Shown here: positions 20,789 through 44,855 of the stretch, one piece after another
Layout of the letters: the number at the start of each line of letters is the position of its first letter
Numbering within the stretch: the first letter of the stretch is position 1
NCBI GenBank assembly: GCA_020847735.1
Contig: JADLBL010000001.1
Span: 1 to 64,000, forward strand
DNA: 64,000 bases
From: Candidatus Eisenbacteria bacterium
GTDB lineage: Bacteria; Eisenbacteria; RBG-16-71-46
Reading direction: 5' to 3'
Program-made: the position numbers and the translations under genes
Notes under the pieces: model-generated
Database searches by the model: none
Seen by the model: only the letters and a program-made list of their open reading frames with translations
Told to the model about the DNA's origin: nothing

Positions 20789-20814
20789 CGCCTTCGCGAG
20801 GCCCATGCTAGAAA
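20785..20814 (+). promoter_or_regulatory. promoter of the tRNA-Phe/tRNA-Thr unit
   Basis: -35 TTGACG (20785-20790) and -10 TAGAAA (20809-20814) are 18 bases apart. The -35 overlaps the TGA stop (20786-20788) of the upstream kinase-like gene. Confidence 0.6.
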
Positions 20815-20857
20815 TCCGTGCCCCGAAACCACCTGCGGTGGTTCTCGGTACGACTTC

Positions 20858-20933
20858 GCCACCCTAGCTCAGTTGGTAGAGCACGTGACTGAAAATCACG
20901 GTGTCCCCAGTTCGATTCTGGGGGGTGGCACCA
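20858..20933 (+). tRNA. tRNA-Phe (GAA)
   Basis: The 76-base cloverleaf has acceptor GCCACCC paired with GGGTGGC, an AGCTCAGTTGGTAGAGC D-arm, anticodon loop CTGAAAA (GAA) and T-loop TTCGATT. The discriminator A is followed by an encoded CCA. Confidence 0.95.
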
Positions 20934-20980
20934 TGGTCCGGTGCGGCCGGCCACGCGCGGTCCCGCCGGAGCGCTGGGGA

Positions 20981-21056
20981 GCTGGTGTAGCTCAGCTGGT
21001 AGAGCACGTCACTCGTAATGACGGGGTCACCGGTTCGATTCCGGTCACCAGCTCCA
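20981..21056 (+). tRNA. tRNA-Thr (CGT)
   Basis: Acceptor GCTGGTG pairs with CACCAGC. The anticodon loop is CTCGTAA (CGT, reading ACG) and the T-arm is CCGGTTCGATTCCGG. CCA is encoded. It follows tRNA-Phe by 47 bases, so the two probably share a transcript. Confidence 0.93.
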
Positions 21057-21083
21057 TTACTCGTTCGGGATCTCGAATCGTCC

Positions 21084-21118
21084 CGCCCGTTCGGCCCCCT
21101 GCACGGCCGTTCCGGGCG
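21084..21118 (+). terminator. possible terminator hairpin after tRNA-Thr
   Basis: CGCCCG pairs with CGGGCG and an inner CGGCC with GGCCG, split by a small internal loop. A second imperfect hairpin (21123-21162) follows. Neither has a clear T-tract. Confidence 0.35.
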
Positions 21119-21216
21119 AAGCGGGCCGGTGCCGGGCGCCTCGCGGTGCCGGACACTGGCCCGTCGTCTTGATCGCTGCGCCATCGTCGAACGGAGGCCG
21201 TCTGCCGTCGTCGCTC

Positions 21217-22548
21217 ATGATCAGTGTCGCCGGTGTGCGTGGCGTGGTCGGCGAAACGCTGACCCCACCGGTGCTGAGCCGCTTCGCGGCGGCGTTCGCC
21301 CGCTCGCTCGGCGACGGGCCGGTGGTCGTCGGCCGTGACGCGCGCACCAGCGGGCCCATGGTGCTCAGCGCCGTCAGCGCGGGACTGAGCGCGGCGGGCC
21401 GCGACGTCGTGGACCTCGGGCTGGCGACGACGCCCGCGACGCAGCTGGCGGTCGAGCACCTGCGCGCGGCCGGCGGCGTGATCCTGACCGCGAGCCACAA
21501 CCCGGCGCCCTGGAACGCGCTCAAGTTCCTGTCCGCGCGCGGCGAGTTCCTGGGGCCCGGGGAAGGACGACTCGTGCGCGAGCGCTACGAGGCCGACCGC
21601 GACCTGTGGCTGGCCTGGGACCGGCTCGGCGAGGTGCGTGCGGAGCCCGGCGCGCTCGGCTGGCACCTCGAGCGCGTGCTCGGGCTCGGCTGCGTGGACG
21701 TGGCGGCGATCCGCGCGCGCGCGCTGCGGGTGGTGGTGGACGGCTGCGCGAGCGTCGGCGGCGTCGCCGTCCCGGCGCTGCTCGAGCGGCTCGGCGCCAG
21801 CGTCGTGGAGCTCGACTGCGAGCCCAACGGGGCGTTCACGCGCGAGCTCGAGCCCCTGCCGGAGCACCTCGGCGCGCTCGGGCGAAGGGTGCGCGAGGAG
21901 CACGCCGATCTCGGCATCGCACTCGATCCGGACGCGGACCGGGCGGCATTCGTGGACGCGGCGGGCGTCCCGCTCGGCGAGGAGTACACGGTCGCGATCG
22001 GCACACGCGTCGTGCTCGCGCGCGAGCGCGGTCCGGTTGTGACAAACCTTTCGACGTCCCGTATGCTGGACGCCGTTTGCGACGAGGCCGGCGTGGAGCT
22101 CCATCGCACGCCCGTGGGGGAAGCGCACGTGGTTGCCGCCATGCACGCCCGCGGTGCCATCGCCGGGGGAGAGGGAAACGGCGGCATGATCCTGCCGGCT
22201 GCTCATCATGGTAGGGACGGGCTGGTGGCGATGGCGCTGCTCGCGCAGGCGATGAGCGGTGGGGCGACGATCCGTTCGCTCGCCGACTCGCTGCCGCGCT
22301 ACGTGATGGTGAAGGACAAGCTGAAGCGGCCGGACGAGCCGTGGGACCGCGCCGGCGTCCGGCTGCGCGACGCCTTCGCGGGCTGGTCGGTGGACGAGAC
22401 CGACGGCCTGCGTTTCGCGCGAGGAGCGGAATGGGTGCACGTCCGGCCGTCGGGCACCGAGCCCGTCGTGCGGGTGATTGCGGAAACGCCGTCCACGGAC
22501 GCGACTCGGACGCTGATCGGTCTCGCGCGACAGGCCCTGGCGGGCTGA
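21217..22548 (+). CDS. glmM: phosphoglucosamine/phosphohexose mutase, GlmM-like
   Basis: The 443-residue alpha-D-phosphohexomutase carries the phosphoserine loop TASHNP (Ser93), the metal-binding DPDADR (237-242), a GGEGNGG sugar-binding loop, and the phosphate-binding RPSGTEP near the C-terminus. It lies 19 bases before glmS, so conversion of glucosamine-6-phosphate to glucosamine-1-phosphate for UDP-GlcNAc synthesis is the most likely role. A GEGNGG loop is also common in phosphomannomutase/phosphoglucomutase enzymes, so specificity is not certain. A TTG at 21169 would add 16 residues; ATG 21217 fits the conserved N-terminus (SVAGVRGVVGE) better. Confidence 0.82.
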   Translation: MISVAGVRGVVGETLTPPVLSRFAAAFARSLGDGPVVVGRDARTSGPMVLSAVSAGLSAAGRDVVDLGLATTPATQLAVEHLRAAGGVILTASHNPAPWNALKFLSARGEFLGPGEGRLVRERYEADRDLWLAWDRLGEVRAEPGALGWHLERVLGLGCVDVAAIRARALRVVVDGCASVGGVAVPALLERLGASVVELDCEPNGAFTRELEPLPEHLGALGRRVREEHADLGIALDPDADRAAFVDAAGVPLGEEYTVAIGTRVVLARERGPVVTNLSTSRMLDAVCDEAGVELHRTPVGEAHVVAAMHARGAIAGGEGNGGMILPAAHHGRDGLVAMALLAQAMSGGATIRSLADSLPRYVMVKDKLKRPDEPWDRAGVRLRDAFAGWSVDETDGLRFARGAEWVHVRPSGTEPVVRVIAETPSTDATRTLIGLARQALAG

Positions 22549-22567
22549 CCCTCGGAGGATCGGGATC

Positions 22568-24400
<1,833 letters not shown>

Positions 24401-24403
24401 CGC

Positions 24404-24410
24404 GGGAGGA
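24404..24410 (+). promoter_or_regulatory. ribosome binding site fixing the ridA start
   Basis: GGGAGGA lies 7 bases before TTG 24418. It falls inside the longer frame from GTG 24397, so the TTG is the real start. Confidence 0.6.
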
Positions 24411-24417
24411 TCCGCCC

Positions 24418-24819
24418 TTGAACGCCCCGCTGAACGTCGCGAACGCACCGAAGGCCATCGGCCCCTACAGCCAGGCGCAGGTCGTGCGGTTGCACGGCGG
24501 CGGCCGGATGGTCTTCACCTCGGGCCAGATCGGGCTCGATCCGGCCTCGGGAGAACTGGTCGCGGGGGGCGTTCGCGAGCAGGCGACACGCGTCCTGCAG
24601 AACCTGTCGGCCGTGCTCGAGGGCGCGGGCCTGACGCTCGCGGACGTGGTCCGGACCACGGTGTACCTGGCGGACATGCAGGAGTTCGCGGTCATGAACG
24701 AGGTGTACGCCGCGGCGTTCGGCGCCTCGCGGCCGGCGCGGACCACCATCGCGGCCGCCGGCCTGCCGAAGGGCGCGCGGATCGAGATCGACGTGGTGGC
24801 CGTGAGCCGCGACCTGTGA
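24418..24819 (+). CDS. ridA: RidA family enamine/imine deaminase
   Basis: The 133-residue protein has the YjgF/RidA motifs: APKAIGPYSQAQ (residues 10-21), the arginine-containing ASRPARTTIAAAGLP, and IEIDVVAV at the end. It hydrolyses reactive enamines and imines made by PLP enzymes. TTG start with a strong ribosome binding site. It follows glmS by 17 bases and precedes selD by 43. Confidence 0.92.
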   Translation: MNAPLNVANAPKAIGPYSQAQVVRLHGGGRMVFTSGQIGLDPASGELVAGGVREQATRVLQNLSAVLEGAGLTLADVVRTTVYLADMQEFAVMNEVYAAAFGASRPARTTIAAAGLPKGARIEIDVVAVSRDL

Positions 24820-24862
24820 CGGAGTCGGGCGCGCGTTCCGCGCGACGACCCACGAGGAGCCT

Positions 24863-25936
24863 GTGACGCGGATCGAAGTCCCGGACGCGCGGCTCACCGC
24901 GACGGTGGCCGCCGCCGGATGTGCTGCGAAGCTCGGTCCCGGCGACCTTCGCCTGGCGCTGGGCCGGCTGAAGCAACCCCGGCGCGACCGCCGCGTGCTG
25001 GTGGACGCGTCCACCCTGGACGACGCGGGAATCTTCGCGCACGGCCGGGGGGAGGTGCTGGTCCAGACGGTGGATTTCTTCACCCCGATCGTGGACGACC
25101 CGTACGACTTCGGGCAGGTGGCGGCCGCGAACGCCCTGTCCGACATCTGGGCGATGGGCGGCCAGCCGCTCACCGCGCTCGCGCTGCTGTGCGTGCCGGA
25201 CCACGGAGTGGACTCCGAAGTGGTTGCCGCGATCCTGCAGGGCGGGCTCGACAAGGTTCACGAGGCGGGGGCGAGCGTCGTCGGCGGGCACAGCCTGCGG
25301 GATCCGGAGCTGAAGTTCGGATACGCGGTGACGGGCGTCGCGAAGCGCCGCCGGCTGCTGCTCAACAGCGGAGTCCGCCGCGGGGACCGGCTCTACCTGA
25401 CGAAGCCGCTGGGCACCGGCGTGCTGACGACCGCTCTCAAGCGCGGGCTGCTCGAAGCGCCGCTGCTGCGGCGCGTCACACGGCAGATGGCGACGCTCAA
25501 TCGCGCCGCCGCCGAGCAGGCGGTCGCCTTCGGTTCGCGCGCCGCGACCGACGTGACCGGGTTCAGCCTGCTCGGCCATGCCTCGCAGATGGCGGACGCC
25601 AGCGGCGTGACGCTGCTGCTGCGGCCGACGGCCGACTGGCTGCTGCCGCGCGTGCGCGAGTTCCTCGCGGCCGACGTGCAACCCGGAGGCCTCGCCCGCA
25701 ACCGGGATTTCTACCGGGCCCGGATCGCGCCGGGAGCGGTGCCGGACGATCTTCTGAAGGCGTTGTACGATCCGCAGACGTCCGGCGGCCTGCTCGTGGC
25801 GATGCCCGCGCGCCGGGCGGCGGCCTTCGAGTCGGCGCTTCGCCGTCGTCGCCTGTGGCACGTGGCGGCCGGCGAGGCGATCGCGCGCGAGGCGACGGCC
25901 GTGCGCCTCGACGACGGCGCTCGGGTCGTGGTGTGA
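24863..25936 (+). CDS. selD: selenide, water dikinase SelD
   Basis: The 357-residue protein carries the catalytic GCAAK (Cys20, Lys23; some SelD proteins have selenocysteine at this Cys), an ATP-binding DDAGIF and [17 protein letters not shown], then [18 protein letters not shown] and [12 protein letters not shown]. It makes selenophosphate from selenide and ATP, the selenium donor for selenocysteine. It lies three bases upstream of tRNA-Sec, so the two are very likely co-transcribed. selA and selB are not in the window. GTG start. Confidence 0.96.
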
Positions 25937-25939
25937 AAC

Positions 25940-26034
25940 GGGAACGAATGGGATCTGGTGGTCCCCGAGGACTTCAAATCCTGCGGTCGGGCGCTTGCGT
26001 CCGAGGTGGGTTCGATTCCCACGCGTTCCCGCCA
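25940..26034 (+). tRNA. selC: tRNA-Sec (TCA)
   Basis: The 95-base tRNA has hallmarks of bacterial tRNA-Sec: anticodon TCA in loop CTTCAAA, a 6-bp D-stem (GGGATC/GGTCCC) closed by a 4-base loop, a 7-bp variable arm (TCGGGCG/CGTCCGA), T-arm GTGGGTTCGATTCCCAC, and an extended acceptor (GGGAACG paired with CGTTCCC, with an A-G mismatch at position 8). It ends GCCA. It starts three bases after the selD stop. It decodes UGA as selenocysteine with SelB and a SECIS element. Confidence 0.95.
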
Positions 26035-26052
26035 CTCTTGTTCGTTGCCGGC

Positions 26053-26588
26053 ATGGCGGTGCTGACCGCCCTCGCGTTCGCGCGGCCGGCCGCGGCTCAG
26101 GGCGTCGCGCCCGACACGGTCTCCCGGCCCGCGGCGGCCGCCGGCTCGTGGACGGAACAGCCGCGCTTCGTCATGTTGCGCTCGCTGCTGATTCCGGGCT
26201 GGGGACAGGTGCACAACCGCGCCTGGCTCAAGGCCGCCGGGGTGGCCGGCACGGAGACCTGGCTGATCTCGTCCATTCTGCGCGACCAGCGGGATCTCGA
26301 CGGGCTGCTCTCGGAGGTCGAATCGGCACGGCTCGCGCAGGACGAGGCGCGTTACGCGGCCGCCGCGAACCGCTACAATGCCCGGCTCGACACCTACGTC
26401 GGCCGCCAGTGGCTGCTTGGCGGCCTGCTCGCGTATGCGCTGGTGGACGCGTACGTGGACGCCCACTTCCGCAACTTCGACCTCGAGTTCAAGCACGACC
26501 CGGCGCTCCCCGAGCCGCTGCCCTCCGGCACCCCCGCGCCGGAAGGAGGCGGCCCGGCGCGCGGCGGGCGTTCGAGTCTCGCGCTGAG

Positions 26589-26601
<13 letters not shown>
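26053..26601 (+). CDS. exported/membrane protein, DUF5683-like
   Basis: The 182-residue protein has a signal-like start ([15 protein letters not shown]). A conserved-looking segment [20 protein letters not shown] (about residues 40-59) marks the DUF5683 type, followed by two hydrophobic stretches (about 60-75 and 118-135) and a Pro/Gly-rich tail. Function unknown. An in-frame TTG at 26038, four bases after tRNA-Sec, would add MFVAG and make a better signal peptide, so the start is uncertain. It overlaps lepA by 13 bases. Confidence 0.62.
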
Positions 26602-28409
<1,808 letters not shown>

Positions 28410-44368: not shown

Positions 44369-44780
44369 CCGAGTCTTCCAGGTGATCGCGCCGCGCGCAC
44401 CGAAGCGGCCGCTACGGCGGTGGCGGAGGTCGGGTGGTGAGGAAAGTCCGAACTCCACAGGGCAGGGCGCTGGGTAACTCCCAGGGGGCGAGAGCCCACG
44501 GAAAGTGCAACAGAGAGCAGACCGCCAACGGGCGGCGCGCCTTCGGGTGCCGCCGCTGCGGGCAAGGGTGAAACGGTGAGGTAAGAGCTCACCAGCGACG
44601 GCGGCGACGTCGTCGGCTCGGCAAACCCCGCCTGGAGCAAGACCGCATAGAGGGGGAGAGGTGTGTCCCGCCTCGTCATCACCCCGGGGTCGGTCGCATC
44701 GAGGTGGTCCGGCAACGGCCACCCCAGTCAAATGATCACCACGGAGCAATCCGACAGAATTCGGCTTACGGGAGGCTCGG
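44369..44780 (+). ncRNA. rnpB: RNase P RNA (class A)
   Basis: The conserved blocks are all present in order: GAGGAAAGTCCG (44439-44450), AGTGCAACAGAGAGCAGACCGCC (44505 region), AAGGGTGAAACGGTGAGGTAAGAGCTCACC, GGCTCGGCAAACCCC, GGAGCAAGACC and GACAGAATTCGGCTTAC near 44754. P1 is an 11-bp helix between 44369-44379 and 44770-44780, including two G-U pairs. The RNA cleaves 5' leaders from pre-tRNAs. It begins two bases after the rnhA stop, so it probably comes from the same transcript or from a promoter inside rnhA. Confidence 0.96.
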
Positions 44781-44855
44781 CCTTGAACGGCGCGCACGCG
44801 AAGCGACGATGAAGCATCGTCGCCGGGCGGGCGCGCCGCTTCGTTGTCGCGGTGC

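Follow-up and report, generated by a model that had tools for sequence, protein, structure and literature searches.

A selD–tRNA-Sec locus as part of a putatively complete selenocysteine system in Candidatus Eisenbacteria

The window analysed here, a 64,000-nt stretch of DNA from a Candidatus Eisenbacteria genome, carries a selD gene followed at a distance of three bases by a gene for tRNA-Sec. From the sequences compared, it is highly probable that this locus, together with two others not linked to it, makes up a complete bacterial selenocysteine (Sec) system, with a formate dehydrogenase alpha subunit (FdhA) as a client. In the bacterial pathway, SelD produces selenophosphate, SelA converts Ser-tRNA-Sec to Sec-tRNA-Sec, and SelB delivers the product at UGA. 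By this scheme, the SelD of the window would make selenophosphate, and the tRNA-Sec encoded behind selD would be charged with serine, which SelA would then convert to selenocysteine. SelB would carry the Sec-tRNA-Sec to UGA codons that are followed by a hairpin, and a formate dehydrogenase with a UGA-encoded catalytic residue would be the recipient. Because selA, selB and an apparent Sec enzyme are found in the same genome, the selenocysteine pathway appears to be complete and of the ordinary type, in a bacterial phylum that has been little studied. The system is of a known kind, and in the literature searched in full text we found no report on Eisenbacteria together with selenocysteine or a selenoprotein.

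The selD gene (24863..25936, plus strand) runs from a GTG start at 24863 to a TGA stop at 25934-25936 and encodes a selenophosphate synthetase of 357 aa. Its product scores 344.9 bits against the curated equivalog family TIGR00476, for which the cut-off is 125. When aligned to 3u0o and 2yye, the catalytic site AGCAAK lies over AGCGCK and SGCAAK, respectively, which places Cys rather than Sec at the catalytic position and bears out the initial annotation, where this SelD was said to use Cys. The site conforms to C/U-x-x-K, a catalytic Cys or Sec and then Lys; UxxK is the motif given for SelD in PMC13188914. The SelDs nearest to that of the window are eleven sequences (L023-L033), all from Candidatus Eisenbacteria. 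Selenophosphate synthesis is the predicted role that we assign to this enzyme.

The tRNA-Sec gene (selC; 25940..26034, plus strand), with anticodon UCA and an encoded CCA, was detected by ARAGORN and by the Rfam family RF01852, which matches 25940-26034 with 74.1 bits (gathering score 47, E 2.4e-13). The spacer between the selD stop and the tRNA is AAC. In the Rfam alignment, the D-stem has six pairs (GGGAUC/GGUCCC) with a UGGU loop, the anticodon is UCA and the variable arm is long; the base preceding the encoded CCA is G (G73). These are the marks of a bacterial tRNA-Sec, namely UCA, a 6-bp D-stem with a 4-nt loop, a long variable arm and G73. Both the placement of a TCA-anticodon tRNA three bases past the selD stop and its 6-bp D-stem and long variable arm, as first described from the letters alone, are confirmed. 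The scores exclude chance for selD and for tRNA-Sec. A comparison of the tRNA-Sec and its flanks with plasmids gave no match.

The window's genome (3.66 Mb, 27 contigs, 99.56% complete) contains the remaining components. The selA gene lies on contig C3 (PF03841, 456 bits; TIGR00474, 537.9 bits against a cut-off of 267.9) and selB on contig C11 (TIGR00475, 359.2 bits against 242.25). The initial annotation had located both genes outside the window and had named their absence from a complete genome as grounds for abandoning its reading; both are present, on contigs other than that of the window. The genome has one tRNA-Sec; ARAGORN identifies a second match that exceeds the tRNA-Sec cut-off, at C11:103064, as a tRNA-Gly. 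Thus selA, selB, tRNA-Sec and selD, the set that defines the Sec-decoding trait, occur in one genome, with the selD/tRNA-Sec, selA and selB loci on three contigs. From their reading frames, we take the neighbours of selA to be branched-chain transporter genes and smc, and selB presumably lies behind an efflux-pump gene. The system shares with the bacterial Sec-decoding trait its four components, the use of UGA, SelA, SelB and SelD above curated cut-offs, and a client FdhA with UHxP. In many Proteobacteria, selA, selB and selC form an operon with fdhA nearby, according to PMC1794560 and PMC5330540, whereas here there are three separate loci.

Our search for selenoproteins in the window's genome covered SelD and three families (molybdopterin-domain, peroxiredoxin and CMD) and yielded one selenoprotein. 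A single one of the four molybdopterin-domain matches holds an internal TGA. The readthrough product of 643 aa has the motif NRTUHAPSVVGL and one in-frame UGA, at the catalytic residue, and it matches TIGR01591, formate dehydrogenase alpha, with 677.5 bits against a cut-off of 666.25. Its solved relatives include 7qv7 (FdhF of the hydrogen-dependent CO2 reductase) and 1aa6 (formate dehydrogenase H). In this genome, then, a known Sec site (UHAP) is occupied by UGA in at least one gene, UHxP being the Sec motif given for formate dehydrogenase alpha in PMC13188914. We infer that Sec is inserted at this UGA. With selA, selB and tRNA-Sec, the UGA-containing fdhA supports the initial proposal of selenocysteine coding in this lineage. 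As the in-frame UGA falls on the catalytic residue, plain stop-codon calling would cut the gene, so that the accompanying warning about truncated selenoprotein genes holds for fdhA. Annotation that treats UGA only as a stop would cut the Sec formate dehydrogenases of the phylum and many of its SelDs.

A SECIS-like hairpin is possible past the fdhA UGA, with a GGUCU loop in the predicted fold that starts 18 nt after the UGA; we take this loop and its offset to match those of E. coli fdhF. The fold does not surpass those of shuffled sequences (z of -0.62), and 54 of 200 shuffles are at least as good. All five genomes with a Sec FdhA share, past the UGA, the same codons from +4 to +9, including a GGT; GGT accounts for 9% of the Gly codons in the five genes. 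Over codons +1 to +14, 8 of 14 are identical against 93 of 298 columns, a marginal difference in synonymous conservation (Fisher p 0.045), with 27 of 114 sliding windows scoring as high. The Rfam SECIS families gave no match at E up to 1 in the three fdhA loci searched. Our confidence in the candidate hairpin is moderate, and more weight attaches to the fact that the UGA falls on the catalytic residue.

Other inner stops in these families were considered as well. None of the 14 peroxiredoxin-family matches in the window's genome has one. In the FdhA relative of genome G024, a TAG is the normal stop codon, located where the match ends, and a TGA-bearing match in G028 did not show the UH motif. 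One of six CMD matches in the window's genome, a CMD-domain (AhpD-like) gene at G000:C8:127964-128305 (L176, L180), has an in-frame TAG. Among three further matches, that of G028 has a TAG elsewhere in the gene and those of G043 and G008 have none; since the TAG differs in position or is absent in relatives, it looks like independent decay and not recoding.

At the window locus, glmS, ridA, selD, tRNA-Sec, a DUF5683 gene and lepA form a tight run on the same strand. A ridA-like gene (24397..24819, plus strand; TIGR00004, 146.2 bits) lies directly 5′ of selD with a gap of 43 nt, and its start is overlapped by an ORF of 610 aa (22568..24400, plus strand) that we take, from its sequence, to be glmS. 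Genes like ridA and glmS are also found upstream in many relatives and are conserved neighbours. Downstream, the conserved neighbour of tRNA-Sec is lepA (EF4; 26583..28409, plus strand; TIGR01393, 964.8 bits). Wedged between the two is a small gene for a DUF5683 protein (26053..26601, plus strand; PF18935, 49.8 bits over 26050-26574), which overlaps the lepA start; its start codon at 26053 was picked by eye, and the reading frame ends at 26601.

The gene order, the shared strand, the 3-nt gap and the lack of a terminator-like site make it likely that selD and tRNA-Sec are co-transcribed. No terminator-like site was found in 20800-26700, and because only 1.5 would be expected there by chance, this zero count says little. 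The sole sigma-70-like site in the same interval, for the one promoter type scanned, is at 22039-22067, upstream of selD. RNase P and 3′ nucleases would release tRNA-Sec from a shared transcript; the window also encodes a bacterial class A RNase P RNA (44370-44783, plus strand; RF00010, 244.4 bits). Such co-transcription could give a built-in supply of selenophosphate and of its carrier.

We then compared the locus across the phylum. Among 47 genomes, tRNA-Sec was found in 39 (E up to 1e-9), selB in 37 (threshold 1e-60) and selD in 42 (threshold 1e-30). Of the eight genomes in which tRNA-Sec was not found at E up to 1e-9, some have selB and selD. Across this largely uncultured phylum, the genetic code probably includes selenocysteine. 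The 39 tRNA-Sec loci (38 from relatives, L089-L126, and that of the window) have lepA within about 1 kb downstream in 37 cases; of the other two, L108 ends 800 nt past the tRNA and L117 has no lepA in 3.2 kb. In 27 loci selD lies upstream; the distance is 2,241 nt in L125 and at most 120 nt in the other 26. Twelve loci have no adjoining selD, and ten of the genomes concerned have their selD matches on other contigs. Since lepA is nevertheless downstream in 10 of the 12, tRNA-Sec is often still found in front of lepA, a steady position that could serve as a marker for the Sec trait. In six of the 12, the end of ridA or glmS is no more than about 300 nt upstream of the tRNA; three (L092, L101, L124) have less than 1 kb of upstream sequence, L108 and L117 have ridA 1.7-1.8 kb away, and the 2.6 kb upstream of the tRNA in L090 contain none of them. 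The flanks of 24 SelD loci from other phyla (L034-L057) contained no tRNA-Sec; a search of 22 of the genomes with these loci gave a tRNA-Sec in 8 and none in 14.

The spacers of the 26 adjacent selD–tRNA-Sec pairs range from 3 to 120 nt, with 19 of 15 nt or less and seven of 31-120 nt, and in every pair the selD frame ends before the tRNA. In one relative (L032), an apparent run of selD into the tRNA was an artefact, and the selD stop lies 39 nt ahead of the tRNA (L089, same genome). The spacer length is a multiple of three in 17 of the 26 pairs, a bias that we think reflects inheritance with in-frame shifts of the stop rather than selection.

This variation bears on how the junction is used. 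The system could work while tRNA-Sec is transcribed from a promoter of its own inside selD, adjacency being a matter of gene packing only. The 12 loci without selD beside the tRNA, ten of them with lepA in place and ten in genomes with selD on other contigs, agree with such an arrangement, as does the spread in spacer length. The only sigma-70-like site, within the single promoter type scanned, is upstream of selD and speaks against it, and we regard a separate promoter as possible but unlikely. Another arrangement would make the Eisenbacteria junction a post-transcriptional switch. On one transcript, the end of selD could then be translated only if the tRNA is neither folded nor cut by RNase P, and selD mRNA would be spent to obtain tRNA-Sec. 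Ribosomes ending selD would compete with RNase P, and SelD and tRNA-Sec would therefore be made at each other's expense. A terminating ribosome reaches past the stop codon, and the 19 short spacers are within this reach. A comparable model is proposed, in Mukai 2021 (PMC8124441), for a tRNA-Sec nested in selB. In both cases tRNA-Sec is coupled directly to a gene of the pathway it serves, and RNA cutting and protein expression may therefore disturb each other; here, however, the partner is selD, and there is no overlap, the stop lying 3 nt before the tRNA. The seven longer spacers, and the termination of selD ahead of the tRNA in all 26 pairs, do not favour a switch. Tight gene spacing is common in operons, and ridA and selD are themselves separated by 43 nt. 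A switch seems to us improbable; if it were true, a feedback loop would be closed where SelD needs Sec and would have been opened by Cys in the window's lineage. Likely co-transcription of selD and tRNA-Sec remains our preferred reading of the junction.

The locus could also be vestigial or put to other use, with selD serving a different selenium trait, such as tRNA selenouridine, and tRNA-Sec persisting as a relic. SelD is able to support other traits, as stated in PMC1794560, and the SelD of the window, as a Cys enzyme, does not itself need Sec. Yet the genome also has selA, selB and an fdhA with an in-frame UGA, the tRNA-Sec scores 74 bits with intact arms, and the trait is widespread in the phylum. 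We consider a relic highly improbable, and the Sec system is very probably a working one.

The SelDs of the phylum differ in their own use of Sec, with a single in-frame TGA in 30 of 44 matches. The syntenic SelDs number 27, of which L094 was left out, its catalytic site being cut by a contig end; at the catalytic residue the others have Sec in 18 cases and Cys in eight. A tree of the syntenic SelDs, with the catalytic residue masked, needs four switches between Sec and Cys, at least three of which are forced by well-supported branches. The window SelD belongs to a group of four Cys sequences (98/93) nested in a group of eight, the other four of which have Sec. Because of this nesting, the Cys of the window is probably a local replacement, in a tree whose root is not fixed. 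With repeated switches in one syntenic selD, close relatives can be compared to learn why some SelDs are selenoproteins.

Variation is also found in the tRNA. Set against the 8+5 acceptor/T helix of bacterial tRNA-Sec, that of the window tRNA-Sec consists of seven Watson-Crick acceptor pairs, an A-G mismatch at pair 8 and five T-stem pairs. Pair 8 is non-Watson-Crick in 38 of the 39 phylum tRNA-Sec (A-G in 20, G-A in 12, C-A in four, A-A in two) and C-G in one, and the T-stem is identical in all 39. As a mark of the phylum the mismatch was rejected; three of eight tRNA-Sec from other genomes (L154, L156, L158) share it, and it is therefore variation within tRNA-Sec and not phylum-specific. Among the remaining five, L155 has C-G, full pairing in L152 and L153 requires, by eye, a reading that begins one base after ARAGORN's start, and L157 and L159 are not cleanly readable at pair 8. 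Forms of tRNA-Sec with a 7+5 helix are described in PMC5330540. In the E. coli tRNA-Sec, the pairs C7-G66, G49-U65 and C50-G64 act in SelB recognition and EF-Tu rejection, as given in PMC9976931. If our matching of positions is right, none of these pairs seems to be kept in the Eisenbacteria tRNA-Sec.

The formate dehydrogenase of the window's genome is split between two genes (L058:3309-8076; G000:C1, minus strand). The Sec FdhA is without the first 50 positions of TIGR01591, and the missing PF04879 Fe4S4 domain is found at residues 884-936 of the product of the next gene, behind NuoE-, NuoF- and NuoG-like domains. Like the Sec formate dehydrogenase alpha of TIGR01591, this FdhA has the molybdopterin and dinucleotide-binding domains and the UHxP site, but here the Fe4S4 domain is at the C-terminus of the partner, a NuoE-NuoF-NuoG-like fusion. 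No title on such a split formate dehydrogenase was among the literature matches listed. The five genomes that encode a Sec FdhA agree in two features: the reading frame leading to the UGA starts only shortly ahead of a stretch ARLT-PLVR or ARLT-PYVR, and it is followed by a similar, NuoE-like frame, the far end of the partner having been checked in the window's genome only.
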